NCBI RefSeq assembly: GCF_000234665.1
Contig: NC_018336.1
Location: 1,219,069-1,283,068, forward strand
DNA: 64,000 nt
Source: Leishmania mexicana MHOM/GT/2001/U1103
Lineage: Eukaryota > Euglenozoa > Kinetoplastea > Trypanosomatida > Trypanosomatidae
Reading direction: 5' to 3'
A program made the position numbers and the translations under genes. This document shows, piece by piece, positions 1,390-63,342 of the stretch (positions are counted from its first letter, which is position 1; each line of letters begins with the position of its first letter). The notes beneath the pieces were generated by a model. The model had not been told where the DNA came from and made no database searches. It was given only the letters and a program-made list of their open reading frames with translations.

Positions 1390-4300
1390 ATGCCCTCCTG
1401 GACTGCAGCGAAGCCAGTTCCAAACTGGCCGGTAGAGCAGGAGACGCAGGCGTCTGGCGTGACGAAGCCTGCTGGCGCTTCGCCGGCACCAGAGGCCAGA
1501 AAGATCTCCGCAAACGGCAACGCTTTCGTCTCCGCTGCTCCAGCCAATGCTGGCGCCAAGCCAGCCATCGCTTACCGTGCTTTCCCAGGAAGCGGTGGCG
1601 TCAGGGGGCCTGCAGTTAACATCATACCTGGTCTGCGGCCCCCGCAGCTGCAGCAGCCAAAGGGTAACGCCATGATGATGGACAGTGGCTACGGCAACTC
1701 GATGTACCGCCCCAGCAACATGAGAGGCTATGCCAGCATGTGCGACTTTGGCGGCATGAGCTCGACGCAGCCACCGGGCTTCATGTACGGTAATCGGAAT
1801 GGTATGGCCAGCGGCTCCGGCTCCATGGGTGGGGGCCAGGACGGCATGGGTGGCTACGGCTCTATGGCTGGCGGCGTTTCGATTTACGGTGGGATGGGTT
1901 GCAAATCGATGGTCTCCTTGTACGGGATGGGTGGTTCGATGAACTGGATGTACGGCATGGGCGGCAACCCAATAGGCTCCCTATACGGCATGGACGGTCC
2001 GGTGGGCTTCATGTATGGCATGGGGTGCCCGACGGGTTCCATGTACGGCATGGGCGGCATGGGCTACATGATGGCCCGCTCCATGAGCTTCTCCTCCTAC
2101 GGTGGCCAAAGCATCTACGGCTCGATAGGCGGCAACTCGCTCATGAAGATTGGTGACAGCGCTTACAGCATTGGCGGCATGTGGAGTACGGAGCCGGGCT
2201 CCCAGGTGCGTCGGCACCCCGACTGCGACATGCCAACTGTGGCAAAGGCTCTGCAGGACGACGATGAGACGCGCAGGTGCCTGGTTCCCACTACGGCAAC
2301 AATGCAGAGGGGTGCGGACAACCAGCTGCCCATGAAAGGTGCTGCTACTGCCGCGACCAACGGCGCCAAGGCCGCAGAAGAGTACGAGAAGGTGGCGAGC
2401 GGCGACAAGTCGAAGTTGGAGGGGGACGACCACGTGGACGAGAGAGTGAAACAGGAGACTAAGTCGCGGGCGAGGTCCTCGCCGCCGGCCGTCCTCAACA
2501 GCGAAGTCTCCGCTGCAAAAGCCAACGAGGACAAGGACGGGGTCACCTTCCGCAACGGTATCCGTGGCATCGTTATTGTCGAGAACGCCAAGAGCACAAC
2601 GGTGATGGTGGAGAGGGCGGAAACGGGCTATAAGGTGTCCCTAAAACTGGCGTCTGGCGAGCCAGCAGAATGCAAGGTGAGCGAGGTGATGGAGGGCGCC
2701 GACGCGGACATGAGCAAATCCGCCGTACTGAACACTGTTTCGACACACCTGCTCAGCGGCCACAATGTCGCCTTGATCGCCGTCGACAGAGAAGAGAAAA
2801 TGTCGGCAGCCGTAGAGAATGCCATCGTCACATTCTACGCGGGATCGCTTGGGAAGCTGGTGGGAGACCACGAGTGGAGGGCAACCTTCTCCGCGGCAGC
2901 GATTTCGGGTGCGACCAACTACCGCGACCTGCAGGACGACAAGGCGACGGCGGCCCTGCCGAAGGCCATCGCGCTCGGCTCCAACCCCATCTGCGGCGCC
3001 TGCATCATGGACCTCAAGAAGGTGATGATGAAGGACGTAGAGACGGTGGCAGTGCACGTGAAGGGTGTGCTTGCGAAAAAGACGCACCCGCGGGAGACCG
3101 TGCTCATGCAGGCCATCTTGCGCATCCGCATGGAGAAGGACTTGTTCATCTGCTCCATGAACGCCTACGTCGTGCGCGACAGCGAGACAGCGGAGGCCTT
3201 GGCGATCCTCGACGACCGCCGCGTGCCAGTTCCAGTGCTGCGCCCCGCCATTGGCGGGTCGACGTGCACGACCGCCGTCATGTTCCTCTCCGGCGCTGCC
3301 CCGGCGGCGGCGGAGGCAGAAGCGATGCGCATCATGGGCACCCTGTGTGCGAAGGAGAGCTCGCCGCCTCGCAGCGGTAATGTGCAGTGCTTCATCGAGT
3401 ACGCGGACGAGCAGATCAAGAAGATCGGGGAGATGGAAAATCTCAGCAGCGCTGAGAAAGACCGCTGCGCGCGCATGGTGAAGAGGATGCGGACAATGGC
3501 GAGCGATGCAAGGGAGCTGATCGGCAACATGGAGATGGAGCCAAGCGTGTACCCTATTCATAGCAAGAGCAGCGCCCCCAGCGTGGCCGCACTGGCAGCA
3601 GCTGACAAGGAGAGCAATGCCAAAGAGGCCGCTGCGCTGACCGAAGCCGCCAAGACGGGCGACATCGCCGCAAACAGGAAGCCGAAGCAGGCGGCCGTCC
3701 CCGACGGCAAGGCGCCGACTGCGGAGAAGCATGCACTGCACTCGAAGGCAGACGCTGCGACGCCGGCGGCACCAGCGAGCCCCTTCAACTCAATCCACCG
3801 TCTAGCGTACCTGCAAGACGCCATTGCGCCGTCTATCGGAAAGGTGGTGCAGGTGATCGTGGACGGCGGGATGAAAGCGTATGACGTGGACGAGTGCATT
3901 GAACGCCCTGCCGGCGCAAATGTGCACGCCGTGGGAGAGTCCAACGAACTGAGGCGCATGGCGGCCTTGGTAGCCGCCGGCTTCAACGTCGCCCTGCTCG
4001 GCGCGGAGTTCACGGAGCCGACGCGACCGGGTGCGCAGATGACGTGGCAGTATGTGAGACTCTTGCTCACGTTGGTGCTCAAGTCTGCCGAGCCGGAGAC
4101 GGCAACGGAGGCGACGCTGCACATGTCCGTGGTGCACGAGCGCGAGGTCCTGGCGGACCTGGGCTCCGGCGACACAGCACGACATTCCCTGGTGGTGGCC
4201 ATGTCGCCCCTCTTTGGGCCTGTGGTGCAAGGCAGCACCGGGGTAAAGGCCAGCACGCCAGAGGAGTTGGAGGAGGTGATGAGCAAGACACTCGCCAACG

Positions 4301-6174
4301 CCAAGCCGGCGCTGAAGGATGGCGCCATGATTGTGATGACAGCGGTGGTGCGACAGAACCGCCACGACGATGTGATGGTGGGCTCCGTCTTCGCCGTCTC
4401 GTCGGCGGACCTGCGCCCGTACAAGAGCATTCTTGAGCACAACCCGAGTTACTGTCGAACTCTCTTTTCTTACGCCCTCGGTGGCCCGTCGTCTACTGGC
4501 GTTCTCATCACAGCCTCCCGCAAGATGAATGCGCCGGAGCTGGCGAACGCGTTCAGCATGCAGCGCAACGTGGCTCACGTTGGAGTGCCGGCCTCGCGCA
4601 GAGGGAGCGTGAGGGAGTTTATCCAGTATGCACGCGGCTCGCTGGAGCGGCAAAAGAAGAAAGTGGCCGCGGAGACGGAGCCGGCAGAGAAGGAGGCGGC
4701 GGAGAAGAGTCTATGTCGCCTCGCGGAGAGCCTGCGCGACCACGAGGAGCTGTTGGCCAACCCGAAGACTGCTGAGGTCAAAGCCTACCCACCCGAGTCT
4801 GTTGCAGGAGTTGCGTTGTCGCCGACGGCAAGGGAGTGCCCGGGCCGCGCGGCGACACCGCCGGAGTTGCAACAGTTTCTGGAGCGTGGCGCCGAGCTCC
4901 AGCGTGAGGAGGCACAGAAGGGCACCGCGAGGGTGACCCCAGATGCGGATCGAGCACCACAGCCACAAGAGGCCAAGTCCGAAAAGCTGCAATCACTGCA
5001 AGCGCATCAGACGGAGGAGCCAAAACTGCAGAAAGAAGAGTTGCGGAAGCCGCAGCCCGCCGAGGAGCAGCAGACACCACAGCAAGGGAACGCATTCAAG
5101 GAGGAGCCGCAGGAAGCCGTGCAGGACGACAACACACAGGCGGTGCAGATCCTGGCCGTCATCACAGAGGACATTTGCAGTGGCTTGCAGGTGAAAGAGG
5201 GGTGGTCAGTAGAGAGCAGCGGCGAGCAGCTCATCGTCACGGATGTCCAGGGGCCGCACAGCTTCCTGGTGGACGAGGTGGTAGTGCGGCAGAACCGCGG
5301 CTCACCCATCGACTCGACAGTGCTCGAGGAGTTGCGCCACCGTTTTTTGCAGGGCAACAATGTAGCCCTCCTCACCACTGAGGCTCGCGGCTCTATGGCG
5401 AGCCTGGAGATGGTGGACCGCACGGTGCGCCGCATTCTGGGCAAGATGCCGCCGTCCAACTCGCTCTTTATGTCGCTCTGTGCACTGAAGGAGAAGGAGA
5501 ACGCCGTGCTCGACACGCTCACCGACGGCGGTGAGTTCCAGACCGTTGAATTGAACGCGTCGCCCCTGTTCGGCCCGTCGATGGCCGGCGCCAACTTCGT
5601 AAAGGTTAGCATGGTGGAACAGTTCTCAAAGCTGATGGGCGGTGGCCTTCGCAAGTGCGGCCAGAGTCGCGCGTGCGTCGTACTGCAGCTCGTGCAGGTG
5701 GAAATTAGGGAGGAGCAGCAGGACGTCAACGTGTCCTCGCTTCTCGCTCTCATGTGCCCTGGCGACACCTCCATCTACCGCCACGCGCTGGACCAGCCAG
5801 TCAGGGAGCACGGGCTGCTCTCCCTGGTCTTCAGCGGTTCCTGTTACACGGTCTTCGCCGTTGGCCTGACGAGGCAGCCGATCGACGAGGGCTGCCTGAT
5901 TCTCCCGCGCCTCGGGCAGGCCTTCAAGGGCTCGGTGCGTAACTTCAAGCCACGCGGTGGCAGTGTGAAGCGTTTCATTGAGCACACCAACAGAGTCGTC
6001 GCGTATATGCAGCAGAACTGTGAGCGCACCACCTCCGACGAGGAGAAGGCGAAGATGCAGGGGTACATCGACGCGGTGAAGTTTATACTGGAGCAGTCCG
6101 AGGCCTACCTGGCGGACCCCGTTAACAAGATGCCGCCGAGCTTCCCCGACGTGCGCGAGCGCCGTAAGCGCTAG
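1390..6174 (+). CDS. gene 1: SMYG-repeat protein with three pseudo-kinesin domains
   Basis: Protein of 1594 aa; the start is the first in-frame ATG after the acceptor tract. Residues 1-95 are Ala/Pro-rich. Residues about 98-261 are a Gly/Met/Tyr/Ser repeat block (motif GSMYGMGG and variants). Residues 262-380 are a charged linker. Three divergent kinesin-motor-like domains follow: A at about 383-722 (P-loop position 'GHNVALIAVDREEK'), B at about 801-1134 ('GFNVALLGAEFTEP') and C at about 1250-1594 ('GNNVALLTTEARGS'). B and C keep 'SPLFGP'; A has 'SNPICG' instead. Each ends in a neck-like segment such as 'PPRSGNVQCFIEYA'. None has a Walker A GKT/S, an SSRSH or a DLAGSE motif, so ATPase activity is unlikely. 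The linker between B and C is Gln/Glu-rich. Paralogous to genes 2, 4, 5, 6, 7 and 8. The kinesin link is my inference from motif order. Cellular role is unknown; a cytoskeletal scaffold is plausible. Confidence 0.93.
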   Translation: MPSWTAAKPVPNWPVEQETQASGVTKPAGASPAPEARKISANGNAFVSAAPANAGAKPAIAYRAFPGSGGVRGPAVNIIPGLRPPQLQQPKGNAMMMDSGYGNSMYRPSNMRGYASMCDFGGMSSTQPPGFMYGNRNGMASGSGSMGGGQDGMGGYGSMAGGVSIYGGMGCKSMVSLYGMGGSMNWMYGMGGNPIGSLYGMDGPVGFMYGMGCPTGSMYGMGGMGYMMARSMSFSSYGGQSIYGSIGGNSLMKIGDSAYSIGGMWSTEPGSQVRRHPDCDMPTVAKALQDDDETRRCLVPTTATMQRGADNQLPMKGAATAATNGAKAAEEYEKVASGDKSKLEGDDHVDERVKQETKSRARSSPPAVLNSEVSAAKANEDKDGVTFRNGIRGIVIVENAKSTTVMVERAETGYKVSLKLASGEPAECKVSEVMEGADADMSKSAVLNTVSTHLLSGHNVALIAVDREEKMSAAVENAIVTFYAGSLGKLVGDHEWRATFSAAAISGATNYRDLQDDKATAALPKAIALGSNPICGACIMDLKKVMMKDVETVAVHVKGVLAKKTHPRETVLMQAILRIRMEKDLFICSMNAYVVRDSETAEALAILDDRRVPVPVLRPAIGGSTCTTAVMFLSGAAPAAAEAEAMRIMGTLCAKESSPPRSGNVQCFIEYADEQIKKIGEMENLSSAEKDRCARMVKRMRTMASDARELIGNMEMEPSVYPIHSKSSAPSVAALAAADKESNAKEAAALTEAAKTGDIAANRKPKQAAVPDGKAPTAEKHALHSKADAATPAAPASPFNSIHRLAYLQDAIAPSIGKVVQVIVDGGMKAYDVDECIERPAGANVHAVGESNELRRMAALVAAGFNVALLGAEFTEPTRPGAQMTWQYVRLLLTLVLKSAEPETATEATLHMSVVHEREVLADLGSGDTARHSLVVAMSPLFGPVVQGSTGVKASTPEELEEVMSKTLANAKPALKDGAMIVMTAVVRQNRHDDVMVGSVFAVSSADLRPYKSILEHNPSYCRTLFSYALGGPSSTGVLITASRKMNAPELANAFSMQRNVAHVGVPASRRGSVREFIQYARGSLERQKKKVAAETEPAEKEAAEKSLCRLAESLRDHEELLANPKTAEVKAYPPESVAGVALSPTARECPGRAATPPELQQFLERGAELQREEAQKGTARVTPDADRAPQPQEAKSEKLQSLQAHQTEEPKLQKEELRKPQPAEEQQTPQQGNAFKEEPQEAVQDDNTQAVQILAVITEDICSGLQVKEGWSVESSGEQLIVTDVQGPHSFLVDEVVVRQNRGSPIDSTVLEELRHRFLQGNNVALLTTEARGSMASLEMVDRTVRRILGKMPPSNSLFMSLCALKEKENAVLDTLTDGGEFQTVELNASPLFGPSMAGANFVKVSMVEQFSKLMGGGLRKCGQSRACVVLQLVQVEIREEQQDVNVSSLLALMCPGDTSIYRHALDQPVREHGLLSLVFSGSCYTVFAVGLTRQPIDEGCLILPRLGQAFKGSVRNFKPRGGSVKRFIEHTNRVVAYMQQNCERTTSDEEKAKMQGYIDAVKFILEQSEAYLADPVNKMPPSFPDVRERRKR
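1690..2175 (+). repeat. SMYG repeat block of gene 1
   Basis: In-frame imperfect repeats encode Gly/Met/Tyr/Ser units such as 'GNPIGSLYGMDG' and 'GCPTGSMYGMGGMG'. The DNA unit core is tccatgtacggcatgggc. The block is more degenerate than in genes 4 and 6. The part at 1801-1876 is almost identical to gene 6. Confidence 0.85.
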
Positions 6175-10830: not shown

Positions 10831-13800
10831 ATGCTACCCACCCCAGTGCAAGCAAAGCATGACGTGAATGCGGCCACGCCTCAGGCGACATTGGTGACGG
10901 CAGGAGCCCCGGCTAGTGTGGCCTCCAATCCGTCTCCCCGCCCTTCAGCGAATGGCAGGCACGCTGCCACGCAGTCTGTCCATACTCGCCCGACAAACGG
11001 CACTGCGCTTCCGGCGATTGCCCCGTCAACGCAGCGCGCGACATCACAGCCGGCCGGGTTCGTTGCGAAGGCGGCGCCGCCGATACCGAAGGCGGACCCA
11101 TCGTTCGTGCCCAAAAAGCCTATCTCTTCTTTCAGTCCAGGCACCTTGGCACGCAGGCAGGTGCCCGGCTCCGGCTACGGAATAGGCTCGGCTATGGGGA
11201 GCTTCGGTGGTGGCGCGATGGTGCCGACGGGCGTCGGCGGTGCACCCAACCCAGCTTATGGGGCATTGTTTATGCAGCCGCTCGGCGGCAGCAGCATGTA
11301 CGGCGGTGGCTCCATGTTCGATGGACTCCCTCCCGGTGCCGCCGACGGCTTCATGTACGGCGGGCAAAACCCAACCATGATGTACAGCTCCGGCTATGGC
11401 ACTTCCACAATGGACCCCTTGGGTGGTCCGATGGGCAGCATGTACGGCATGGGTAGCCTGATGGAGTCCATGGGTGGTGGCAGCTACGGAGTGAGTGGCT
11501 ACAGCGCAGGCGGCTTCGGTGGTAGTCTCTACGGCGGCTCTCTGCTCGGCAACACCGGTAGTCTCTACAGCACAGGGGGCTCCCTCTATGGCAGCAGCGA
11601 CCCAAGGGCAGTGATAGGCAGCATGTACGGCAGTTTTATGGGCTCCATGCTTGGCGGTTTCGGCTCCATCTACCATGTCGACGGTCCCCACACGAGCCTT
11701 GGTGTCGTGCGCACGCAGTCTATTCCAGGCTTCTCCTACACGTTCGGGTCGAACCTGGGCACTACCGCGTACCGCCCCAGCTTCTACGTCGACGCGGCGG
11801 CTTCGCGTAGCGGCAGCATGCGGGATAACACTTTTCGCATCTCCACCTCGATGAAGGCTAGCGAGCACGAGGCGGGGCCGAAGGCGAAGGCCGAGGAGAC
11901 GGCCCGGCAGCACGGCTCCACCGGCGTTGACAAGGATGGGAGAACCATGGAGGAGAAACCCGAGGGCGACACGCCAGGCTCCGCTGCCGTGGAGGCGGCG
12001 AAGCCGGAGTCAATCATGAAGAAACACACGTCAGCGACAGAAGCGCCAAAGCCGCTGACGACGGCGCGCCAGCAGGGCAGCGGCGACGCAGCCGATCAGG
12101 CGGCGATGCTCTCTAGCGATTTTCGTATCCACAACGTGGCTGTGCTGCAGCAGGCCGGCGCCAGAAGTGCGACTGTGACGAAGAAAGACGAAGCATGCGT
12201 GATGAAGGGCAGGTCGTACGCGATGGACGAGGTGGTGGAGTACAAGCCGGCGAGCACGAACGCCGCCGTCGAGTCGCGTCATCTGAACGACCTCATCGAG
12301 CACGTGCTCGCAGGCCACAACAGTGCGATCCTCGTCGCCGACGACGGCAAGGCAGTAGGCGCCGCCAAGGCGGCTGTGGAGACGACCATGACGAAGCTGA
12401 TAGAGGAACTCAGGAAGCCGGCACGCAACAGCTACGCGGGCCTGTCGATGACCATGTGCTGCTTGCCAAGCAACAAGACGGTGTGCGATCTCCTCGTTCA
12501 CGATGCAATGGCGACGCCATTGAAGACGGGCAACTCACCGCTTTTTGGGCCCGCCGTCATGGGTCTCAAGTCGGAGCCCATCGAGAGCGGTGGCCACTTC
12601 GCGGAGCTGTACGACACCGCACTGAGGCGCGGCGATCAGAAGTCGATGGTGGTGTGCACGGTGGTCGTGTTGCAGATGCGGCCGCCCTCGTGCGAAGGCA
12701 AGGGAGAGGTGCTCCTGTCCTCTGTCTTCATCGGCGTCAGCCGCACCGGCCCAAAGGCGTTCCACGACATCATCGACAAGCTTCCTGCCTCTACGCACGA
12801 GATCTTCAGCTACGCGATTGATGGTCCTACAGTGTGCGTGCACGTCGTGTCGGTAAGCCAAGACACGACAGACGCGAAGGTGCTGGAGGAGGCGGCGAAA
12901 GTCGGAGCTGTCCAGAATAGCCCAGTACGCAGCGGCAACGTGCGCCGCTTTATCGACCTCACAGAAAGCCAACTGAAGAGCATGCTGAAGCGCCGCGATG
13001 CGAGCACCGGCTCCGAGAAGGCGGAGCTCGACAACCACGTGAGGCGGCTGAGCGCAGTGCTAAAGGACGCGAAGAGTCTCCTGTCCAACCCCCAGAACAC
13101 GGTACCGCACGTCTACCAAACTGAGGTAGGGTCGAGCATTGAGACGGCGTTGGGAGAGCCGAAGACCCGTGCCGCGCCAGAAGCTGCGGCTGCGGGGGAG
13201 GTGAAGGACAAGCTGACTGCGGCTGCCGACTACAAGCCGCGCAGCACCAACATCGCAGCTCTTGTATTCGCGGATGTGGCTGAGGCGCGCGCGTACTCGG
13301 TAAAGGACACCACCGTGACGGCCAGTGGCCGGCCTTTCTCGGTGGATGAGGTGGTGATGCGCGACGCGGTGAAGTCGACGTCCACAGAGATCAAGACGAC
13401 TGGCCGGGTTCTGAGCTCGTTTCTGAAAGGGTACAACGGGGCCGTCATCGTGGCGGATAGCACGGCGGTGGCTTCTAACGGGATGGAATCGCCGACAATG
13501 AGTTTCCTCTTCACGGCCGTCGCCGGTGCCTTCGAGAAGAGAGGCTGCAAGGGGGTGCGCGTCTCCATCGCGCTCTTACGGGAGTCCGGTTTGGCGTGCG
13601 ACTTGAGCGACACCGCCGCAGGGCTGAAACCGATCGAGGTGTCATCGTCTCCGCTGTTTGGTCCGATCCTGCAAAACGCTGCGCTGCACCGCATTCGCGC
13701 GCAGGAGGATCTGCGGAAGTTAGTAGACAAGGCGCGGGAGCAGGTGAAGCCGCTGTGGAACGCGCAGAGTGCGGTGCACATCACAGTGCTGCATTGCTTC

Positions 13801-43107: not shown

Positions 43108-45543
43108 ATGAGCCACACCAAGGCATCCAGCTCTACCAGCAAGAGCAAGTCCTCTTCCAGCAAGCATCCGCCGAGCGGCGGCTCAGACCGCCACAAATCG
43201 AGCAGCAAGCACTCGGATCGCGCATCGTCGTCGTCTGGCAGGCATCACCAGTCGTCATCGTCCTCTGGCAAACACCGCTCCTCGGGCCGGTCCTCGGCGG
43301 AGCAAAAACTCTCCGCCTCTTCGAAGCCGGTCGCGCCAGCGCCGACGGAGGCCTCGTCGACGACCGCTGTCTCACGCCCCGCCGGTGCGGCTCCAAAGCC
43401 CGGGTCTGCCGTGACACCAAGCAGTCCTTCAAAGCCCACCACCTCTAATGCGATGGCAGCCGGCACGGCGCTGTCTTCGCTTCACACGCTCTCCAGCGTT
43501 CCTGCGAACGGTGCCCCTGGTACCACGCCAAGCTCTGCCACCAGGTCGAACGGTTTCGCACAAGGTGGTGTTCCGCCAAATATCCAGCCCATCGGAGGGT
43601 CTATGAGGGAAGCCTCGAACGGCATGTATGGGTTGGGTGCCGCGAGCGGCTACGGCGGCACGGGCGGTGCTCGGAATGGCGTGGACGGCTTTGGCTTCAT
43701 GGGGCCCGGCTGCATGAGCAACTATGGCAGTATGGGCGTCAACCAGAACGGTATGGCCAGCGGCTTCGGCTCCATGGGTGGGGGCCAGGACTGCATGGGT
43801 GGCTACGGCTCTATGGCTGGCGGCGGTCCAGACGGCATGAGTGGCATGGTCGGTCCGATGGGTTCCATGTACGGCATGGGCGGCAACCCGATGGGCTCCA
43901 TGTACGGCATGGGCGGTTCGATGGGCTCCATGCTGGGTCCGATGGGGTCGATGTACGGCATGGGCGGCAACCCGATGGGCTCCATGTACGGCATGGGCGG
44001 CATGGGCTCCATGTACGGCATGGGCGGCATGGGCGGCATGGGCTCCATGTACGGCATGGGAGGAATGGGCTCCATGTACGGCATGGGTTTTGGCAGCATG
44101 TACGGCGGCAGCTACCACAGCTTGGTGGATGCGGGGTCTCGCTGTGCTAGCTTCCTCAACAGGAACGACCTGATTCGTGCCGATGTGAAGCCTCTGAACA
44201 GCGACAAAAACGGCGGCTTTGGCGAGAAGGATGCTAAGAGTGCTGACAACAAGAAGGATGGGGACAAAAAGAACAGCAAGGGCCGCGAAGTCAAGCTCGA
44301 GGAGGCCAAGGGCGACGCCAGGGACCCCAAGGCGGCGAAGAGGGAGGTGGCTGACAAGAGGGAGGTGACTGACAAGAGGGAGGTGACTGACAAGAAGGAG
44401 GTGACTGACAAGAAGCCGTCCGTGGAGGCGAAGCCTGCGGACACCAAGGACACCAAGGAATCCGACAAAAAGGAGGTAAAGGACAAGAGCGGAGAGAAGA
44501 AGGACAGCGAGGCGCCAGTGGCCAAGACTGACGGTCCCCTGAAGTTCAGCGGCACCAAGATCCGCAGTCTCGCGCTTGTCTGCAAGTCTGGCAAGGAGGC
44601 GAAGGTGACCGTGAAGGGCAGGGACACCGTTGTCATGGAGGACAGGGAGACGAAGCTCGACGAGGCCATTCTCATCGAGGGCCCGAAGAAGCCAGTGGAA
44701 GCAGCTGCGCTATCGGAGGTGCGCAATCAGTGGGTGGTGGGCCACAACGCCACCATCATGATCGGCAGCGACGCAACGCGACGCACGCAGGCGGTGGATT
44801 TCATGTGTGAGTACCTGTCCACGTGCACGGGCAAGTTGGCCGCCAGCGGTGAGTACTTCAACATCTACGTCACGATGACGGCGCTCGAGGGCTCGGATAA
44901 GGGCCGCGACCTGCTGAAGGACGACGCCGCCATTGGGAAGCTTGCGCTCGCGTCGTCTCCGGTGTACGGTCCGGCGCTGAACAACATGACGACGAAGGAG
45001 GTGAACACGAAGGAGGCGATGGAGGCGGTGCTCAAGGAGGGCATGAGGCGCGCCAAGGAGGGTGAGATAGTCTGCAGCTACCTAGTTCTGAAGCAGTGCC
45101 GCAAGAGCAGCGCCGGTCTGATGGTGTACCTTTCCTCCCTGAACGTCACGTTCGTTGGCCCGAACGTGGAGCATCTCATCGGCCTCAAGGCCAAGAAGCC
45201 GGAGGAGCCGTGCCGCCTCTACCGCTACTCCGTCGGCGGCGGCAGCCATACCATGTGTGTCGGTTTCGTCAGCGACGACGAGGCCTCTGCGGCCAAGGTC
45301 TTCGATGCGCTCAGGGAAATGCGCGAGGTTGAGAACACCGAGCCTCGCAGCGGCAACGTGAAGCGCTTTATCGAGTACACAAAGAAGGAGATCCCGAGGT
45401 GCAGGGAAAAGATCTCCTCGGCGACGGAGGAGGGCAAGAAGGCAGACTACGAGACGATGCTGAAGCGGATGGCGATGATGCTCAAGGACGCTGAGGACAT
45501 CGAGAAGGACCCGAAGGCGGCCGCCCCGAGGGCGTACGTGTAA
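43108..45543 (+). CDS. gene 6: SHRK-rich, SMYG-repeat protein with one pseudo-kinesin domain
   Basis: Protein of 811 aa. Residues 1-75 are Ser/His/Lys/Arg-rich ('SKSKSSSSKHPPSGGSDRH'), a composition otherwise found here only in the C-terminal tail of gene 8. Residues 76-164 are Ser/Ala/Pro-rich. Residues about 165-336 are the Gly/Met/Tyr/Ser repeat block, the most regular in the family together with gene 4. Residues 360-480 form a highly charged Lys/Glu/Asp linker with four 'REVTDK'-type hexapeptides (about 412-436). The single motor-like domain spans about 485-811, with 'WVVGHNATIMIGSDAT' at the P-loop position, 'FNIYVTMTALEGSDKGRDLL', 'SSPVYGPALN', 'LYRYSVGGGSHTMCVGFV' and 'EPRSGNVKRFIEYTKKE'. 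Catalytic motifs are missing. The domain is closest to gene 5 (shared W..GHN). Confidence 0.93.
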   Translation: MSHTKASSSTSKSKSSSSKHPPSGGSDRHKSSSKHSDRASSSSGRHHQSSSSSGKHRSSGRSSAEQKLSASSKPVAPAPTEASSTTAVSRPAGAAPKPGSAVTPSSPSKPTTSNAMAAGTALSSLHTLSSVPANGAPGTTPSSATRSNGFAQGGVPPNIQPIGGSMREASNGMYGLGAASGYGGTGGARNGVDGFGFMGPGCMSNYGSMGVNQNGMASGFGSMGGGQDCMGGYGSMAGGGPDGMSGMVGPMGSMYGMGGNPMGSMYGMGGSMGSMLGPMGSMYGMGGNPMGSMYGMGGMGSMYGMGGMGGMGSMYGMGGMGSMYGMGFGSMYGGSYHSLVDAGSRCASFLNRNDLIRADVKPLNSDKNGGFGEKDAKSADNKKDGDKKNSKGREVKLEEAKGDARDPKAAKREVADKREVTDKREVTDKKEVTDKKPSVEAKPADTKDTKESDKKEVKDKSGEKKDSEAPVAKTDGPLKFSGTKIRSLALVCKSGKEAKVTVKGRDTVVMEDRETKLDEAILIEGPKKPVEAAALSEVRNQWVVGHNATIMIGSDATRRTQAVDFMCEYLSTCTGKLAASGEYFNIYVTMTALEGSDKGRDLLKDDAAIGKLALASSPVYGPALNNMTTKEVNTKEAMEAVLKEGMRRAKEGEIVCSYLVLKQCRKSSAGLMVYLSSLNVTFVGPNVEHLIGLKAKKPEEPCRLYRYSVGGGSHTMCVGFVSDDEASAAKVFDALREMREVENTEPRSGNVKRFIEYTKKEIPRCREKISSATEEGKKADYETMLKRMAMMLKDAEDIEKDPKAAAPRAYV
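43600..44112 (+). repeat. SMYG repeat block of gene 6
   Basis: Ten or so tandem copies of a Gly-Ser-Met-Tyr-Gly-Met-Gly unit, some spaced by Gly-Asn-Pro-Met and some by Gly-Met. The core is 43850-44110. The DNA core tccatgtacggcatgggcgg recurs exactly several times. The segment 43750-43825 is almost identical to gene 1. Confidence 0.93.
44341..44415 (+). repeat. 18-bp tandem repeat in gene 6
   Basis: Four copies of agggaggtgactgacaag (first copy gtggct, last copies aagg) encode 'REVADKREVTDKREVTDK' and 'KEVTDKK'. It forms a charged, probably helical spacer. Confidence 0.9.
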
Positions 45544-52643: not shown

Positions 52644-55600
52644 ATGGCAACGGCGACGCCTCCGCGGAGTGCAGGCACAACGCCGCCTCTGCAGCACAAT
52701 AATGGCAAGGTGTCGTCGTGGCCAGAGAAGACGCTGGTGGAGGCACCAGAGTGTTTTGCAAATGGGCAGTATTTTGATGTGCCGTGTACTCTGGGTAGCG
52801 AGGATAGCGATGCCCGCTCTAACAGCGCCGTAAGCATCTGCAGCGGCGATAAATCCGGGGAACGGTGGTGCCGTGCACAGAGCAATCGTAGGTGGAAAGC
52901 ATCGACGAGTAGCGATACGGGGACACGCGACGAGGGCGCCGCATACCCAGCAGCCGTCTCCTCCATGTCTTCTTACTACTTCAGCGGACACAACATGCTG
53001 ACGGGGGCCACCCATGAGCGCGCGGTGGAGCAGGGGCTCATGGAAAATCGCAATGGCATGAACGCGTGTCGGTCGTTCAGTAGCCAAGCGAGCGAGCGAA
53101 CTGGCGACACGGCGGAGCAGTCTTCTCGGCCGTTCGGTTTACTGGGAGCCGCTTCACCATCTGTGGTGCAACCGGTGACGAGGATGGCGCGGGTCCGTGC
53201 AGCAGCGGTGGCGGCCTCTTCGCGAGCAATGTCGTCGACCGAGCTCGATGACCCCTATCACGTTCTCTTCATGCCAACTGCGGCAACCCTGTACTCAAGC
53301 TCGCGCGCCGGAAGCGACCGAGACAGCGTCGACGGTGAAAGCCGTTTCACTGCGCGGGCATCACAGCAAGACATGTACTGCATGAACACGTCAATCCTTA
53401 CGATGTCTACAGACGCGCCTGCCAGTCTCTCTACGCGTCAGCAGCGGGACGGCGCCGCTCCACGTGGTGGGTCCGCTTCCGTCACCTCGTCCTGTAATCG
53501 GGTGTATGTGCCAGGGATCTTGGAGTACGGGGAGTGGATGTTGACGGCGCGGCCAGCGACGATGGAAACTCTCTGTGGGCATTCGACCGGCGCTAAGGCG
53601 CTCGCCACCGACCATGAGCGTCGCTCTGCTCGGTTTCCGAGCCCCGCTGCCATTGACGCCAGAGTGGAGCCGTTGATTCAGTCCTCGCCGACCACGGCGG
53701 TCTGTTTTCCACGCACGGCACCCCCCACGACAGTGTCGGATGAACTTCAAGCAGGCCCAGTTGTGACCGCTAAGGCGCACAGTGTCCCCTCTGCCCGAGG
53801 TTCGCAGCTGTCACGCGGCGCTGCCGATAGCGAGGCGTCCCCGGAGACGAAGGATCGGCCGCCAGTGTCGGTGTACAAGAGCACTGCCGCGATAGCACCA
53901 CCGCCACCGCTGAGCACCTCCGCCATCCCCGGCGTGTGTATCACCATGACGGACTTCACGGCTGACGTGAAGAGCCCGGCAAGGGGTGTCGTGAATTACA
54001 GCACCGCTGTCGACGCCGCTGTCTGCCAACCGGTCGAGTCGCAGTCGCACCGCTGCTCCACTGGTTTCGCGAAGGCGATCGCCGCAGGACATCGTCGCCG
54101 CGTCTCGGACTGCGGGGCACCGTTTTTTGAAGCCTCATTGTCGTTGCTGGCAGCACGCAATGTTCTCCAGCACCAGCAGCCGTGCCCCTCTTACGCCAAC
54201 GACGCCACGAATTCTGGAGAGAGCAAAATGCACACGGTTCCCCCTGTCATCTCGAATGGCTTCCTGGGCGGACACGGATCGGCCTTCATGACAACAGCAT
54301 CTGTGAGCACGTCTTCCGCGGCCCTGGTACCCGATCACGCCCCTCTCCTGGCCTCCGGTGTGCATCCTATTCGCAAGGGCGTCGGTGCACCGTCGTGCGT
54401 ACCCTCTTCTGTCGCCTCCACTGCTTCCACAGCGACGCCGCGACTGTTGTCACCTCAAGCCTTAGCGACCGCAGGGCAGCCTACTTCGACGGCGTGGGCC
54501 GCGCAACCGCCAGACGTGTCGCGTCGGGCTGGAAGCCACAGCCCAGCTACCACAGTGGGCGGCGCAACCTCCAGTACCGCCAGCACGCTCTCTGGTGACC
54601 TCATCCCGAGCTCCTCTCCGAAGAGCGCCTGTGCACAATCCGGCGCCTTGAAGCCACCCTCTATTGGCCCCCAGCCGCTTTCCAACTCTAATGGCGACAC
54701 CTTGCTGATTCTCAGCGGCGGGGTGAGGAAGTCGACCCACCCATCGCAGACAGCACTCGCGGCTCGTGAGACGAGCGTGTCCGCTGCCGGTGGGCAGAGC
54801 AGGTCCGACGCGCATGTCGCAACTTCAAAACTCACCGCCGCGACACCGACTGCCTCGGCTTCCACGATATCCACCCCTGCGATGAGTACCCTCGCCTCCT
54901 CACGCGGCCTCTCCGACGAAGGGGGCGCCTCCCACGCTACCGAAGACACGTTTTGCCCCGCCTCCCAAACAAACAAGCGCGCCCCGCACCAACTACCGAA
55001 GCAGCGTCCGCTGAGCTCGCGCGTGGACGGCCAGACGTTGAGGCCGGTCATTCCCGCGACAATCACCCTTTCTTCACCGCATGGGACAGCGTGGAAGGCG
55101 ACACGGCCGCAAGAGGAGGCGCACGTCGACGGGGCTGCTGCATCCCGGGACAGCAGAAAGGACGCGGTTTGTCCCACTCGCTCCCCATGTGACTGGCGAC
55201 GGCGCATGGGCTTCAAGCAAAACAGGGAGATTGTTTTACCTGACTCCAAGTCGCTGCGGGCGTCCATGTCGCCGCTGCTTGAGTTTCGCAGCCTGACCAT
55301 GCGCGAACAAGGCAAGGAGATGATGCCGTCGACTGAGGAAGTATCCACACACCTCGTGACGCGCTGGAATGCGGTGTGCGTGCTGGTCGTCGTCGACGAG
55401 GACGCGGTGCGGAAGCCGTGCCTCGTCGTGAGTGGGCTCAGCGTGCGTGTGTACGAGGAGGACAAGTCAGTGACGCTGGCGAATAGCAGAATGGCTCATG
55501 GCATGATGCGAGTACTGAAGAGGCGCGGTGGTGCGACTCATTCTCGTTTTTTGTGCAGTGCCAGCTACGACGGCGACGAGGACTCAGACGACAGTGACGC

Positions 55601-57245
55601 CTTGGCGGTTGGTATTCGCGGCGGCGTTGGCTTGAGCAATCGCGCCACGAGCAGCGGCGGCGGCGGGCTGCCGTCCAACCTGAAGTCCTATGTTTTGCTA
55701 CCAGATAAGAAGGTGCGCCGGAGCCAATCTGGCGTGGGTGATTCGGCCGACCCCTGCACTGTGGAGTTTGACAACTACTTGCACAAGTTTGATGTAGACG
55801 AGACTCTCAGCCGCCTCGCTGGCAGGAAGGACTGTCACTCCGTGACGCTGGACCAGCTGGTGCAGACGTGGGTGACGGGGCATAACACCTGCCTCCTGCT
55901 AGGCAACGGCAACGGCCGCAGCACGCAGTCCCTTGACGTGGTTGTGGGGGCGGTGGAGAGCGCCATGAGCGTACTGCGCGAGCGACTCACTGACCCGGCC
56001 AGCCGTGTCGAGCTGCACATTTCCATGGGCGAAGTCTCTGATGACAACGACAACGGTGGCACGATGGTGCTAGACCTGCTGACATCCTCCTCGGACAACG
56101 ACGATGACGACAGCGACGACGACGAGCAGGATAATGGCGCGAGGTGGCGGCGCAAGGAGGCACCGCGGGCCTCACAGAAGAGCGGCGCAACCCGCCCCCC
56201 AGTGCAGCTGGCGCGCAGTCCGCTCCTTGGCACCTTTGTGAAGGGGCTCCGCTCCGTGAAAATCGACGACGCCACCACCGCCACAGACGCCATTGGCCGC
56301 GCCTTGACGCTGGGGTTTATGCGGCGCAACATGTCTACCCATTCTTCCCGGAACAACAGCATGTCGACTCTGTCCAGTCTCAGCAGCGCCGCGCTGAACA
56401 AGGTATGCATCAGCTTCGCTACCCTGGGTCTGAAAACTATTTGCCGAGGTGCAGACATGCGCAGCGCGCGGCTGAGCGCACGCGAGAGCGCAACGAGCAA
56501 GAAGAAGTTTGGCGGTCAGGAGCGGCACAGTCACTCCGTGGAGTACCGTGCGGACGTGCTTGTGTCCTCGCTTCTGCTCGTCTACTTCGGAACCGAGCAC
56601 CATGTGCTCGACACCCTCGTGCAGCACAGCCAGGCGTATCGAACGACAGCGCGCGAGGAGGAGGAAGGCATCGTGCATCCGAACGCACCGTTGCGGGCTG
56701 AGAAACCTGATTTCCATCCCGCTAGCTGGCCGAACGCAGTCGGGTTTCTTCAGTCGCTTCTGTGTGACGCGCTGGGGGGCCGCACCCGCACCATGGTGTG
56801 TCTCTGCTTGTCTGAGTACGACTCGCGCGCCACACTCTGGCTGCGAGCGGTGAGCCGGGCGAGACGCATCATCAATGTGACACCGAACTGCGGCAACATG
56901 CGCAACTACCTGCTCTACCTCCTGGAGCAGTACGACAACCTGGCAGCACTGCAAAGTCGTCGAAAGCAGGATGCACGGCTGTTTCTACCGGCGCTGGGCA
57001 CTCAGGCCAATTCTAAGCACCACAAGCGCAGCCGCCTTCCCGTCGTATCTTCCAACAGGGAGTTTGATCAATGGTCGGTCTATTGCATCAAGAAGATGAT
57101 CGCTGAGCTCGACGCGTTCCTTGCCACCTCGACGGGTGACACACCTTTGCTTGAGCGGCTGGAGATTGCGAACGAGATCATTGCAACTACGCAGTCGGAT
57201 TCTCTTTCAAACCCTCCCCTGGCCTTCTTTTCGCGGAACTCCTGA
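52644..57245 (+). CDS. gene 7: divergent single pseudo-kinesin protein with long disordered N-terminus
   Basis: Protein of 1533 aa starting 'MATATPPRSAGTTPPLQ'. Residues 1-900 are Ser/Ala/Thr/Pro-rich and probably disordered; there is no SMYG repeat block. Residues about 907-1438 hold one expanded motor-like domain: 'WNAVCVLVVVDED' (first strand), 'FDVDETL', 'WVTGHNTCLLLGNGNGRS' at the P-loop position (about 1078), 'VELHISMGEVSDD' then 'MVLDLL' (kinesin SYLEIYNE..DLL position), an acidic Asp insertion (about 1146-1166), 'RSPLLGTFVKGL' and 'SLLCDALGGRTRTMVCLCLS' at about 1371, followed by 'RARRIINVTPNCGNMRNYLL'. That last stretch is very close to the kinesin pattern LL.DSLGGN..T.MI...S...RA..I.N. 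The Walker lysine and switch motifs are absent. The C-terminus (1439-1533) is basic then helical. Probably the most kinesin-like anchor of the family. Confidence 0.92.
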   Translation: MATATPPRSAGTTPPLQHNNGKVSSWPEKTLVEAPECFANGQYFDVPCTLGSEDSDARSNSAVSICSGDKSGERWCRAQSNRRWKASTSSDTGTRDEGAAYPAAVSSMSSYYFSGHNMLTGATHERAVEQGLMENRNGMNACRSFSSQASERTGDTAEQSSRPFGLLGAASPSVVQPVTRMARVRAAAVAASSRAMSSTELDDPYHVLFMPTAATLYSSSRAGSDRDSVDGESRFTARASQQDMYCMNTSILTMSTDAPASLSTRQQRDGAAPRGGSASVTSSCNRVYVPGILEYGEWMLTARPATMETLCGHSTGAKALATDHERRSARFPSPAAIDARVEPLIQSSPTTAVCFPRTAPPTTVSDELQAGPVVTAKAHSVPSARGSQLSRGAADSEASPETKDRPPVSVYKSTAAIAPPPPLSTSAIPGVCITMTDFTADVKSPARGVVNYSTAVDAAVCQPVESQSHRCSTGFAKAIAAGHRRRVSDCGAPFFEASLSLLAARNVLQHQQPCPSYANDATNSGESKMHTVPPVISNGFLGGHGSAFMTTASVSTSSAALVPDHAPLLASGVHPIRKGVGAPSCVPSSVASTASTATPRLLSPQALATAGQPTSTAWAAQPPDVSRRAGSHSPATTVGGATSSTASTLSGDLIPSSSPKSACAQSGALKPPSIGPQPLSNSNGDTLLILSGGVRKSTHPSQTALAARETSVSAAGGQSRSDAHVATSKLTAATPTASASTISTPAMSTLASSRGLSDEGGASHATEDTFCPASQTNKRAPHQLPKQRPLSSRVDGQTLRPVIPATITLSSPHGTAWKATRPQEEAHVDGAAASRDSRKDAVCPTRSPCDWRRRMGFKQNREIVLPDSKSLRASMSPLLEFRSLTMREQGKEMMPSTEEVSTHLVTRWNAVCVLVVVDEDAVRKPCLVVSGLSVRVYEEDKSVTLANSRMAHGMMRVLKRRGGATHSRFLCSASYDGDEDSDDSDALAVGIRGGVGLSNRATSSGGGGLPSNLKSYVLLPDKKVRRSQSGVGDSADPCTVEFDNYLHKFDVDETLSRLAGRKDCHSVTLDQLVQTWVTGHNTCLLLGNGNGRSTQSLDVVVGAVESAMSVLRERLTDPASRVELHISMGEVSDDNDNGGTMVLDLLTSSSDNDDDDSDDDEQDNGARWRRKEAPRASQKSGATRPPVQLARSPLLGTFVKGLRSVKIDDATTATDAIGRALTLGFMRRNMSTHSSRNNSMSTLSSLSSAALNKVCISFATLGLKTICRGADMRSARLSARESATSKKKFGGQERHSHSVEYRADVLVSSLLLVYFGTEHHVLDTLVQHSQAYRTTAREEEEGIVHPNAPLRAEKPDFHPASWPNAVGFLQSLLCDALGGRTRTMVCLCLSEYDSRATLWLRAVSRARRIINVTPNCGNMRNYLLYLLEQYDNLAALQSRRKQDARLFLPALGTQANSKHHKRSRLPVVSSNREFDQWSVYCIKKMIAELDAFLATSTGDTPLLERLEIANEIIATTQSDSLSNPPLAFFSRNS

Positions 57246-59718: not shown

Positions 59719-62700
59719 ATGCAGCAGGTCACCACAACGCCGGCAAGCAACTTTGCACCGGCCAAGAGTTCGGCGACTGCATTCGGTGCGTCAATGGCGG
59801 CGCAGGGTGCGCCAACACCGCTTCCCCTCCAACAGCAGTGTGGGATGGCTGTGCAGGGCCAAGAGGCGGGCCCGGACTCCTCTGGCATGCGAGCTGGGCA
59901 TCCGTCGGCCCATCAGCCGGGACTTGAGCCCATGGAGCAAGCCAACTACGATGCCAACGCAAACAAGGCCACCTACGCGAAGCGCCTGCGCCACGGTGAA
60001 GAGTACAAATCCGCCGCTGTGGACGGGGTGCAGCGCGCGGAAAGGCCTGTACTAGGGGCGGCCGATCCACAGCGGGTGAACAGCAACCTCCCCAGCGATT
60101 GCCCAGCGTTCGCCCGTTCGTTGGGCGATCAGACGCGCTACACCTTCAACGTTGACCGCGGCTCCTTCGCGTGCGACGCGTACCGCAACGACTGTCTCGG
60201 CACCGGCTCCTTTCATGGGGGCATGCCAGGCTCGATGATGATGGGTCGCATGGGTTCCATGTTTGGCATGGGAGGCCCAATGAGGTCCATGTACGGGATG
60301 GGCAGCATGTACGGCATGAACGTGTCCCGCCCAGCCTCGCTGTTCGGGTCTATGTACGGTAGCCAGTATGGGATGGTGCCGATGGAGTCGATGTACAGCT
60401 TGGGGGGCTCCATGAACCGCATCAGATCCATGTACAGCACAGGATCCATGTATGGTATGGGGGTGCCGATGAGGTCCGCAATGGATATGATGGGCTGCCC
60501 GACGGGATCGATGTACGGCATGAACCCTGGAAGCCAGTTTGGTCCGAATGGCTTCAGCAGTGCCTACGGCGATCAATTCCCAAATGGCATGCACGGGTCG
60601 CAGTACAACGGCACCAGCAGCTACGGCATGTTTGGTGTTGGCAGTGGCTACCAAGCGCAGCCCGGCTACGGCCCCACTGGCGTGACTGGCGCCGGCGAGG
60701 CAAGCGGCACCAATAATGCCGGCGCCTTCCCACCGGATCCTGTGGAGCAGCCTGGAGCGTTCTCCAGTAATGCTCCGCTTCGGGTGGTCACGCAGACTTC
60801 CGGTGCTCAGAAGAAGAGTAGCGAGCGCAAGAACGCTGTGGTGGGTCTGCTGGTCATTTCTGCTGACGCGAACCCGGCAAAGACGGTGATGCTGTCGAGC
60901 GACCCGCCAATTGCGATGGGTGCTGATGAGATAGTGCGCACGGGTCCCAGCGCTTCCGCCACCGCCGTCGCGATCACGCGCAGTCCCAACTTCCAAGGTG
61001 TGTACAACAGCGTCAACGCTGGCCACAACACGGCGGTATTGCTCGCGACGGACGGGACAACGGAGTCCCGCTCGATGGCGACGGAGGTGGTGAGGCAGGT
61101 GCTAGCGGAAGCGTTGTCGGAAACGGCAAAGGCGGCTGCCAGCCACGGCTCTCTGGGCTACTACGACGCTAGTGTGTCGGCCTGTGCGCTGCGCAGCGCT
61201 ACGGAGGCGATCGACTGCATCGAGGGGGCTGCTGTCACGAATGTCGAGGTTGGCTCGCATCCGGTGTTTGGAACGGCTTTCATGAACGTTGGCACGGTCA
61301 CGGTGCGCAACATGGCAACGCATATGCCCCAGGTCGACGCGGCGATCACTGCGGCGTGCGGGAGGTCGGATGCCAAGGTGGTTGTCATCGAGGCCGTCGT
61401 GAAGCAGGTGCGACCGTCGCAGAAGGGTAGCAGCCCCACGGATGTGCTGCTATCCTCGATCGTGTTTCTCGTCAGCAACGTGACGATCGAGCAACAGTCA
61501 TACTTCGAGGCTTTCCGTAACGACGCAAACGTGCCACCAGCCCTCATCAAGGGCTGCATTGGCGGGGCGTGTCATACCGTGGCGGTGCTGTGCATGCCGA
61601 ACTGCACCGACCCCTCAGCCGCCAAGGAGGCAGTGGCCTCACTCAACGCAATCCGCCACATCCAGAACTCGACGCCACGCAGTGGCAACCTCGCCCGATT
61701 CATCGCTTTCGCCACAGGAGAGAGCGACAAGATGAGGCAGAAGCCAAAGGTAGATGTAGCAGTGCTGGAGAGTGTGGATGCGATGCTGGCGGACGGCCGC
61801 TCCATGCTCCAGGACCCGCGCAACACCGTGCCGGTGGCATACCCAAGCTCGGCAAAGCGCGCCCTGAGCCGCACGGCGAACACGCCACAGCTCTCGTCGC
61901 GCGACATCAACGCCCACGCCACGGAGAAGGGGCGTGACGCGTCGAACCCGATTCGCGTGGCCGCCATCGCGAGCTCGCAGGCCAGCAAAACGTTTCCACA
62001 GACGTTCAACGTTGGCCCAGATGGCAAGTCCATTGCGGACGCCGCTAGTGGCACCGAAGCATCTGTGCTGGAGGTGGTGACCTGTGCCCCGGAGGACTGG
62101 CGCAGCACGAAGTCGGAACTGGTGAACGAGGTGCAGACTCTGTTCCAGAACGGTAACAACACTGCCATCGTCGGCAGCGTCTCGCCAAACGAGGTGAATA
62201 TGCTGAGCAAGCAGCCACTGTGGATGGCCTACAAGAGCATGGTCTCCTCCCTCCTCAGCGTCGCTCCCCAGAAGTACAAGTTTGCTGAGGTGAGTCTCAG
62301 CATCGCGCTTGTCGGCGGCAACGAGCTGCTCGCGGACCTTTTAGTCGGCATGGATTCGGAAACCCCGACAGCGCAGACCCCGCAGAAGCTCTCCGTGGCG
62401 TATTCACCGCTCTTCGGCCCTACCGTGTACAAGGCCACGACCATCAAGCAGCCCACGGCGCTTCAGCTTGAGTCCACCGTCAACGGTGCCCTCGCCAAGG
62501 TCCCGGCGATTATGCAGCAGCACCCGAGCAAGAAGACGGTGATCATCGCGTCGGCTGTCATGAAGGGTGTCACGGCCACGGATGTGTACACAAGCTCGAT
62601 GCTGGCCGCCAGTGCTCTGGACCCGACGGTGCTCACCGACATCCTCGACAAGAAGCCGGACGTGCCACATGAGCTGTTCGACTACGCGTTTGGCGGCCCG

Positions 62701-63342
62701 TGCTGTACCTTGTTCCTGGCCCACGTCAGCCAGGGTGACACAAGCGTGGGGAAGGTTGTTGAGCTGATAAACCGACTCAATGCGATACAGAACCGCAGCG
62801 TGAGGACGTGCAGCGTGAAGAAGTTCATCGCCTTTGCCGAGGAGAGCCTCAGGAGGGCGGAAATCAAGGTAGCCGCGGCCAAGTCGGAGACAGAGAAGGA
62901 GACCATTCTGCGCAGCAAGAGGAGTATGGAGGTGTTCCACGTCGAGTACAAGACCCTCATCGAGGATCCCGAGCACCACGACCCGAAGACGTACCGCCGC
63001 AGCGGAGGAGGCATCGGCTCCTCGGGCTCCGGGGCCGCCGCCCCCACCACGGCCAGCTCCGGCGCGAGCAAGACGCGCAGCCTTGCGACCCCAGTAACCG
63101 GTGCGGTTTCGGCCGATAAGTCTCGGAGGAACGTCGACGGCGAAGAGAAGAGCAGCGAACGAAACGCGAAGACTGACGACGCCAAGTCGTCTGGCAGCCG
63201 TCATAGTTCTAGCCACAGGAGAGCTTCGGCAGACGGGAAGAAGAGGCACCACTCCAGCAGTCGTCACAGCTCCGGGTCGAGGCGCAGCTCAAAACCCTCT
63301 TCTCACAAGCACCATCACAGATCCTCCAAGGACAAGAAGTAA
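59719..63342 (+). CDS. gene 8: SMYG-repeat protein with two pseudo-kinesin domains and SHRK tail
   Basis: Protein of 1207 aa starting 'MQQVTTTPASNFAPAKSS'. The open frame extends upstream only to a GTG, so this first ATG is used. Residues 1-165 are low-complexity to mildly charged. Residues about 168-311 are a degenerate Gly/Met/Ser/Tyr repeat block. Two motor-like domains follow: A at about 372-710 ('GHNTAVLLATDGTT', 'HPVFGTAF', 'CIGGACHTVAVLCM', 'TPRSGNLARFIAFA') and B at about 743-1094 ('GNNTAIVGSVSPNE', then 'PLWMAYKSM', 'YSPLFGPTVY', 'LFDYAFGGPCCTLFLAHV', 'VRTCSVKKFIAFAEES'). No domain C is present. Instead residues 1095-1207 are a basic Ser/His/Arg/Lys tail ('GKKRHHSSSRHSSGSRRSS') like the N-terminus of gene 6. 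Catalytic kinesin motifs are absent. Such basic tails could bind acidic tubulin tails or nucleic acid; this is inference. Confidence 0.93.
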   Translation: MQQVTTTPASNFAPAKSSATAFGASMAAQGAPTPLPLQQQCGMAVQGQEAGPDSSGMRAGHPSAHQPGLEPMEQANYDANANKATYAKRLRHGEEYKSAAVDGVQRAERPVLGAADPQRVNSNLPSDCPAFARSLGDQTRYTFNVDRGSFACDAYRNDCLGTGSFHGGMPGSMMMGRMGSMFGMGGPMRSMYGMGSMYGMNVSRPASLFGSMYGSQYGMVPMESMYSLGGSMNRIRSMYSTGSMYGMGVPMRSAMDMMGCPTGSMYGMNPGSQFGPNGFSSAYGDQFPNGMHGSQYNGTSSYGMFGVGSGYQAQPGYGPTGVTGAGEASGTNNAGAFPPDPVEQPGAFSSNAPLRVVTQTSGAQKKSSERKNAVVGLLVISADANPAKTVMLSSDPPIAMGADEIVRTGPSASATAVAITRSPNFQGVYNSVNAGHNTAVLLATDGTTESRSMATEVVRQVLAEALSETAKAAASHGSLGYYDASVSACALRSATEAIDCIEGAAVTNVEVGSHPVFGTAFMNVGTVTVRNMATHMPQVDAAITAACGRSDAKVVVIEAVVKQVRPSQKGSSPTDVLLSSIVFLVSNVTIEQQSYFEAFRNDANVPPALIKGCIGGACHTVAVLCMPNCTDPSAAKEAVASLNAIRHIQNSTPRSGNLARFIAFATGESDKMRQKPKVDVAVLESVDAMLADGRSMLQDPRNTVPVAYPSSAKRALSRTANTPQLSSRDINAHATEKGRDASNPIRVAAIASSQASKTFPQTFNVGPDGKSIADAASGTEASVLEVVTCAPEDWRSTKSELVNEVQTLFQNGNNTAIVGSVSPNEVNMLSKQPLWMAYKSMVSSLLSVAPQKYKFAEVSLSIALVGGNELLADLLVGMDSETPTAQTPQKLSVAYSPLFGPTVYKATTIKQPTALQLESTVNGALAKVPAIMQQHPSKKTVIIASAVMKGVTATDVYTSSMLAASALDPTVLTDILDKKPDVPHELFDYAFGGPCCTLFLAHVSQGDTSVGKVVELINRLNAIQNRSVRTCSVKKFIAFAEESLRRAEIKVAAAKSETEKETILRSKRSMEVFHVEYKTLIEDPEHHDPKTYRRSGGGIGSSGSGAAAPTTASSGASKTRSLATPVTGAVSADKSRRNVDGEEKSSERNAKTDDAKSSGSRHSSSHRRASADGKKRHHSSSRHSSGSRRSSKPSSHKHHHRSSKDKK
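60220..60650 (+). repeat. degenerate SMYG repeat block of gene 8
   Basis: Variants such as 'GRMGSMFGMGGPMRSMYGMG', 'GSMYGSQYGMVPMESMYSLG' and 'GCPTGSMYGMNPGSQFG'. The Gly-Cys-Pro-Thr-Gly-Ser-Met-Tyr-Gly-Met unit also occurs in gene 1. Confidence 0.85.

Follow-up and report, generated by a model that had tools for sequence, protein, structure and literature searches.

Attachment to the sand fly has been called an important step for the transmission of Leishmania, and a published part of it is the ARND family of L. mexicana, which comprises 11 proteins (Owino et al., PNAS, 20 July 2026; PMC13416946, a source available to us in part). The chromosome 32 members, in a list pieced together from several passages of that paper, are LmxM.32.2890, 2900, 2905, 2910, 2930, 2940, 2960, 2970, 2980, and 3010, and the eleventh member is LmxM.17.1030. 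Kinesin was the top Foldseek match for ARND, and Walker A was conserved in none of the proteins; the family is already known and its kinesin link is already published. KIAP4 (LmxM.32.2940) is located at the plaque and is required for in vitro adhesion and stomodeal valve colonisation, and seven members give a strong signal at the adhered flagellum (PMC13416946). This was the sole paper found in a literature search on KIAP4, and no kinesin-derived scaffold family of this kind was among the papers listed in further literature searches. Here, we analysed 64,000 nucleotides of L. mexicana MHOM/GT/2001/U1103 (NC_018336.1, contig 32, C32:1219069-1283068; hereafter the window), which contain fifteen copies of a domain sharing ancestry with kinesin. 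At a probability of roughly 0.8, we read these domains as dead-kinesin protein-protein modules that build the adhesion plaque.

The fifteen copies are encoded by seven genes on the + strand between 1390 and 63342 (3, 4, 3, 1, 1, 1, and 2 copies in genes 1 to 7), and both totals agree with the original prediction, which was made from the raw sequence without tools. All 15 can be aligned end to end, and a profile built from them re-finds each at 265-392 bits, a range that is circular for these copies, and also detects members beyond the window. Gene 6 is the most divergent member. The features are as follows, with putative locus tags assigned from locus-tag order (PMC13416946) and the content of glycine, methionine, serine, and tyrosine (GMSY) given for the N-terminal regions; gene lengths are in amino acids (aa).

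1390..6174, +, gene 1, 1594 aa, three kinesin-like (ARND) domains, putative LmxM.32.2905
1684..2133, +, gene 1 N-terminal GMSY-rich region, 69%
2557..3636, +, gene 1 domain 1, class A
3784..4863, +, gene 1 domain 2, class B
5131..6171, +, gene 1 domain 3, class C
10831..16620, +, gene 2, 1929 aa, four domains, exceeds the Pfam Kinesin cut-off, putative LmxM.32.2910
11257..11706, +, gene 2 N-terminal GMSY-rich region, 63%
12121..13200, +, gene 2 domain 1, class A, best Pfam stretch at residues 443-599
13243..14322, +, gene 2 domain 2, class B, modelled with AlphaFold2
14434..15513, +, gene 2 domain 3, class B, extra copy
15610..16617, +, gene 2 domain 4, class C
29602..34029, +, gene 3, 1475 aa, three domains, putative LmxM.32.2930
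30079..30528, +, gene 3 SMYG-repeat region, 73% GMSY
30838..31917, +, gene 3 domain 1, class A
31957..33036, +, gene 3 domain 2, class B
33052..34026, +, gene 3 domain 3, class C
36681..39023, +, gene 4, 780 aa, one domain, putative LmxM.32.2940 (KIAP4)
37206..37655, +, gene 4 GMSY-rich region, 69%
38001..39020, +, gene 4 domain, class A, modelled (residues 430-780)
43108..45543, +, gene 5, 811 aa, one domain, putative LmxM.32.2960
43693..44142, +, gene 5 SMYG-repeat region, 79% GMSY
44551..45540, +, gene 5 domain, class A
52644..57245, +, gene 6, 1533 aa, a single divergent domain, SMYG words absent, putative LmxM.32.2970
55677..57242, +, gene 6 domain, long insertions, labelled class A
59719..63342, +, gene 7, 1207 aa from ATG (residue numbering counted from 59716, one codon upstream of it), two domains, putative LmxM.32.2980
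60205..60654, +, gene 7 GMSY-rich region, 65%
60829..61908, +, gene 7 domain 1, class A
61942..63021, +, gene 7 domain 2, class B

Searches of the own genome (32.0 Mb, 545 contigs) with three family queries identified 11 family genes: ten on contig 32 over ~111 kb, namely two upstream genes (2744 and 2580 aa), the seven window genes, and one downstream gene (1101 aa), plus an eleventh on contig 17. Only the gene 4 query retrieved gene 6. The predicted cluster is present as described, with the correction that the array passes the window limits. With the profile of the window domains, 23 domains were counted in the 11 proteins, a number that excludes two further stretches with E > 0.2 in upstream protein u1 and gene 4; the middle domain of the 2580 aa upstream protein is weak (18.8 bits). 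The window genes are seven of the eleven ARND genes, as the number of genes and their layout (ten on contig 32, a single one on contig 17) agree with the published set. Matching the ten tags to the ten genes in order would make gene 4 KIAP4. The skipped locus tags agree with frames outside the family in two places, between genes 2 and 3 and downstream of gene 7; against this matching, no convincing frame was found for LmxM.32.2950.

Shared ancestry of the ARND domains with kinesin

The sequence landmarks named in the original prediction are present, and most of them vary in some copies. When 14 domains are aligned (all but that of gene 6), eight positions are invariant: the E of DE, the N of G(H/Y/F)N, the D of DLL, the G of SP(L)FG, an S of the VSS strand, a G of the GG motif, the R of N.P.R, and the F of RFI. 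In the profile alignment, the ARND landmarks fall in the same order on FDxV, GxNxTIFAYG, DLL, the post-DLL strand, LLxDSLGG, and IxNKP of kinesin, bearing out the motif order of a kinesin motor that had been recognised in the sequence alone.

Comparison of the 15 ARND domains with 28 kinesin domains from this genome by hhalign gave a family-level match of 97.6% (E 3.6e-12, score 95.6), far above the reversed profile (score 14.7) and 100 column shuffles (12.7 on average, 19.8 at most). The match to 24 canonical kinesins was similar (97.8%, E 1.2e-12, score 98.7), all E-values referring to one comparison rather than to a library search. It remained at 97.5% without gene 2, and among the single-gene comparisons, which covered genes 1, 2, 3, and 7, reached 94.7% for gene 2 and 91.7% for gene 3. 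Pfam Kinesin was above cut-off in gene 2 (33.6 vs. 29.3 bits), and a precomputed kinesin match is present in 8 of the 13 proteins listed for the gene 2 search (gene 2 itself being one of the 13). A PDB sequence search with gene 2 returned nothing with an E-value of 1 or lower. The best single kinesins of the 28 were L002 (90.5%), L003 (89.1%), L033 (83.6%), and L036 (80.3%), values too close together for the nearest kinesin to be named. The divergent kinesins L048-L051 were rejected as special relatives of ARND, as hhalign with those four gave 2.0%, below the canonical kinesins. Kinship with myosin was likewise rejected: the ARND score of 16.1 lies within the shuffle range (two myosins only), and canonical kinesin vs. 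myosin scores 29.7.

Predicted structures point in the same direction, with kinesin as the best match for both modelled domains. The model of the gene 4 domain is confident (predicted local distance difference test (pLDDT) 93.9, predicted template modelling score (pTM) 0.91), and kinesins top both of its PDB comparisons, with a low identity of 10-17% among the matches listed in one of them. The gene 2 domain 2 model is less so (pLDDT 66.4), with a Foldseek kinesin match at E 2.3e-15; its input alignment A4 had one paralog row misaligned at 0% identity, which may have lowered this model. Of the 7 matches in a viral fold library with an E-value of 0.001 or lower, 4 are named kinesins. In the gene 4 model, two long helices (289-309 and 312-337) follow the last core helix and form a C-terminal helical hairpin.

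An origin outside the kinesins, with convergence from a P-loop or other alpha/beta fold, could account for the low identity and for the six of seven window genes without a Pfam kinesin match, but it is most improbable given a profile score far over shuffles, reversal, and myosin and motifs in kinesin order. At the level of the family, the profile statistics establish that the ARND domains share ancestry with kinesin, and the models show the kinesin core fold to be kept, confidently for one domain. The fold interpretation put forward from the raw sequence thus finds support in both, and had reached the same kinesin relation as the structure search of the published study.

The ATP site and the tubulin-contact stretch

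The patterns of the adenosine triphosphate (ATP) site are missing from the whole family. Walker A (GxxxxGK[ST]) occurs in 0/23 ARND domains vs. 28/28 kinesin domains from this genome, the switch I pattern (SSRSH; SSR[SA]H in kinesins) in 0/23 vs. 24/28, and the switch II pattern (D.AG.E; D[LIV]AG.E in kinesins) in 0/23 vs. 25/28, the comparison kinesins having been picked by kinesin profiles and the switch patterns differing slightly between the two sets. These motifs suggest that the ATP site (P-loop, switch I, and switch II) was lost and that the domains would not bind ATP. That the domains are active motors after all, with a nucleotide site in cryptic form, might be proposed from the kinesin fold and from an AGKGR in gene 4 near the P-loop position. 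However, with Walker A and both switch patterns missing from 23/23 domains, and Walker A conserved in no member (PMC13416946), this reading was rejected, and we consider it very unlikely that ARND domains are motors.

Motor decay may also have taken a second route in this genome. Three divergent kinesins, L048 (C31:161400-162700), L049 (C30:1273500-1274800), and L050 (C17:109000-110700), keep a P-loop and lack the SSRSH and DLAG.E patterns; by hhalign they are not near ARND.

The main tubulin contact of kinesin, made up of L11, helix alpha4, and L12, lies in the stretch from beta7 to the GG motif. This stretch measures 32-35 residues in 20 of the 22 measurable ARND domains (1/23 was not measurable) and 63-173 residues (median 68) in 24/28 kinesins, the other four being without an anchor; the beta7 anchors are our own patterns (DV.VSS in ARND, L.LVDLAG in kinesin) and may differ by ~1 residue. 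The exceptions are gene 6 (70 residues) and one upstream domain (65 residues), which have the length for a full L11-alpha4-L12 segment, whereas the 20 others do not. At the shortened stretch, the gene 4 model has one 7-residue helix (226-232) after strand 208-220.

This shortening bears on whether the domains might be motor-dead and still bind microtubules, as Vik1/Cik1 do, with ATP-free docking that anchors the plaque in the cytoskeleton, flagellar or anterior. The retained kinesin core (gene 4 model) and the precedent of Vik1, in which a kinesin fold without an ATP site binds microtubules (PMC3544905, available in part), favour such a role. We nevertheless regard it as quite unlikely: the main tubulin-contact stretch is ~30 residues shorter in 20 of the 22 measurable domains, the adjoining P(F/Y/W)(R/K).S.L(T/A) motif is missing from 23/23, and the word microtubule does not occur in the main text of PMC13416946.

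Domain classes, N-terminal tails, and surroundings

Three domain classes were defined by position (A first, B middle, C last), and in a tree of the 23 domains a single branch sets each class apart from the rest. When the eight outside-window domains were treated as a fourth group, three changes in total were required vs. a shuffled mean of 12.3, and none of 200 shuffles was as low, a test that is partly circular since the single-domain genes 4, 5, and 6 and the extra gene 2 copy were assigned to classes by eye from the alignment. Bootstrap support for the class branches is weak (68, 32, and 64% of 200 trees), and the end branches are long. The layouts comprise one A domain (genes 4 and 5), A+B (gene 7), A+B+C (genes 1 and 3), and A+B+B+C (gene 2); that a three-domain ancestor gave rise to them is a lead rather than a result.

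The 150-residue stretch upstream of the first domain consists of 63-79% Gly, Met, Ser, and Tyr in genes 1-5 and 7, with 1-8 SMYG words each. These words are absent from gene 6, from the two upstream genes, and from the gene on contig 17, and the downstream gene has one. The DNA pattern for GSMYGMG has 13 exact matches genome-wide, all in array genes 1, 3, 4, 5, and 7 (reversed control none), and related repeats are found in T. melophagium and T. congolense relatives. Gene 5 also contains an 18-base tandem repeat (44338-44413, 4.2 copies) encoding a charged linker (KREVTD).

Relatives of gene 4 in other Leishmania species are 83-94% identical. POMP22-1 and POMP22B are tabulated for T. brucei (PMC7952579, available in part), POMP22B is counted as a KIAP4 relative (PMC13416946), and a gene 2 relative in L. 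guyanensis carries a POMP22-based name. No relatives are reported in Bodo saltans (PMC13416946). Our search for older relatives, with 7993 candidates scored, returned its own first row only, low-complexity words having probably filled the candidate list, and so has no bearing on Bodo or Euglena.

Between genes 2 and 3, the eighth long + strand frame translated (21837-23111; ATG at ~22173, MSYGGYDQ...) is Gly/Tyr-rich, gave no Pfam match and no match in own-genome searches with the three family queries, and is perhaps LmxM.32.2920 by gene order. A further low-complexity frame is located past the downstream end of the window (C32:1288420). A run of 100 N (58595-58694, C32:1277663-1277762) marks an assembly gap, so sequence may be missing between genes 6 and 7. 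The 7 kb between genes 5 and 6 (45600-52600) have, besides themselves, 14 short matches (~30-80 bases) elsewhere in the genome with simple repeats skipped, and thus no large dispersed repeat was seen there. An Rfam scan of the window gave nothing at gathering score. The ~25 kb upstream of the array (L013-L016, C32:1170981-1196013) hold no ATG-started frame of at least 300 aa on either strand; a small frame occurs there twice, alike at the start (C32:1176459 and 1177648), and the first copy continues into a stretch of 100 N.

Role in the adhesion plaque and comparison with known systems

Each protein has a long N-terminal region (GMSY-rich in 6/7) followed by one to four kinesin-derived domains. 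In the proposed mechanism, these kinesin-fold beads and their C-terminal helical hairpins would dock on each other and on partners such as KIAP3, and the low-complexity N-termini may help the proteins gather; the result would be the cytoskeletal plaque with which the flagellum holds on to the lining of the insect gut. A fuller history, for which we put the odds slightly below even, is that kinetoplastids made a kinesin into a mere structural unit: the ATP site of an ancestral A-B-C protein would have disappeared, together with most of the main microtubule-binding segment in almost every copy, and the protein, with the hairpin and SMYG-rich tails, would have multiplied into a plaque-forming adhesion set involving no motor activity and no microtubules.

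Several points weigh against reading the domains as dead-kinesin modules of the plaque. The absence of ATP binding is predicted from motifs, and binding of ARND domains to each other or to KIAP3 is likewise putative. Structural models cover 2 of the 15 domains, that of gene 2 domain 2 at low confidence, and hhalign places the gap of ~30 missing residues before DV.VSS, unlike the gene 4 model, leaving the exact position of the loss unsure. Besides the six genes for which no Pfam kinesin match is listed, only 6/15 domains came within the inclusion threshold of an own-genome kinesin hidden Markov model (best E 5.8e-5), and the single-gene hhalign values of genes 1 (73.7%) and 7 (8.3%) are lower. 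Finally, for some L. mexicana members the signal at the adhered flagellum is weak or not detected, and the T. brucei relative POMP22B is mitochondrial (PMC13416946), so plaque scaffolding need not be the role of the whole family.

A special form of scaffold, not exclusive of the reading preferred here, would be septin-like polymerisation of the domains into filaments that shape the flagellar membrane. Such filaments were proposed for KIAP4, as speculation, by the authors of PMC13416946, and tandem beads of a single fold could assemble. On the other hand, the nucleotide site appears to be gone in ARND, and septins assemble partly through interfaces around that site. We consider this form rather unlikely; the 50 matches listed in the gene 4 PDB comparisons include no septin, which excludes nothing.

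If dead-kinesin modules do build the plaque, kinesins stripped of their engine and, seemingly, most of their track contact would provide a clear case of evolution from motor to scaffold, and bench work would focus on protein-protein binding rather than on microtubule or nucleotide binding. Beyond PMC13416946, our analysis adds the switch losses, the shortened stretch, the 23-domain count, the positional classes, the SMYG repeats, and the sequence-profile statistics, some of which its supplements may hold; like microtubule, the words switch, motor, tandem, glycine, and low complexity are absent from its main text.

Compared with the published ARND/KIAP4 description (PMC13416946), the family has the same count (11) and layout, kinesin as the best structural match, and a lost Walker A, and no contradiction was found. 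With the kinesin motor domain (Pfam PF00225), ARND has the core fold and motif order in common, but differs by the absence of the P-loop, switch I, and switch II patterns, the shortened post-beta7 stretch, and the C-terminal helical hairpin (gene 4 model). The Vik1/Cik1 motor homology domain of yeast kinesin-14, likened here by description, is likewise a kinesin fold without an ATP site. However, Vik1 acts as the partner of an active kinesin and attaches to microtubules (PMC3544905), whereas ARND domains often occur as tandem copies, and the main tubulin-contact stretch is shortened in most of them. Closest in context are KIAP2 and KIAP3, kinetoplastid calpain-like proteins with no active peptidase domain, in which an expanded inactive enzyme domain is reused in the same adhesion complex (PMC13416946), with the difference that their domain is calpain-like peptidase and the ARND domain is kinesin-like.

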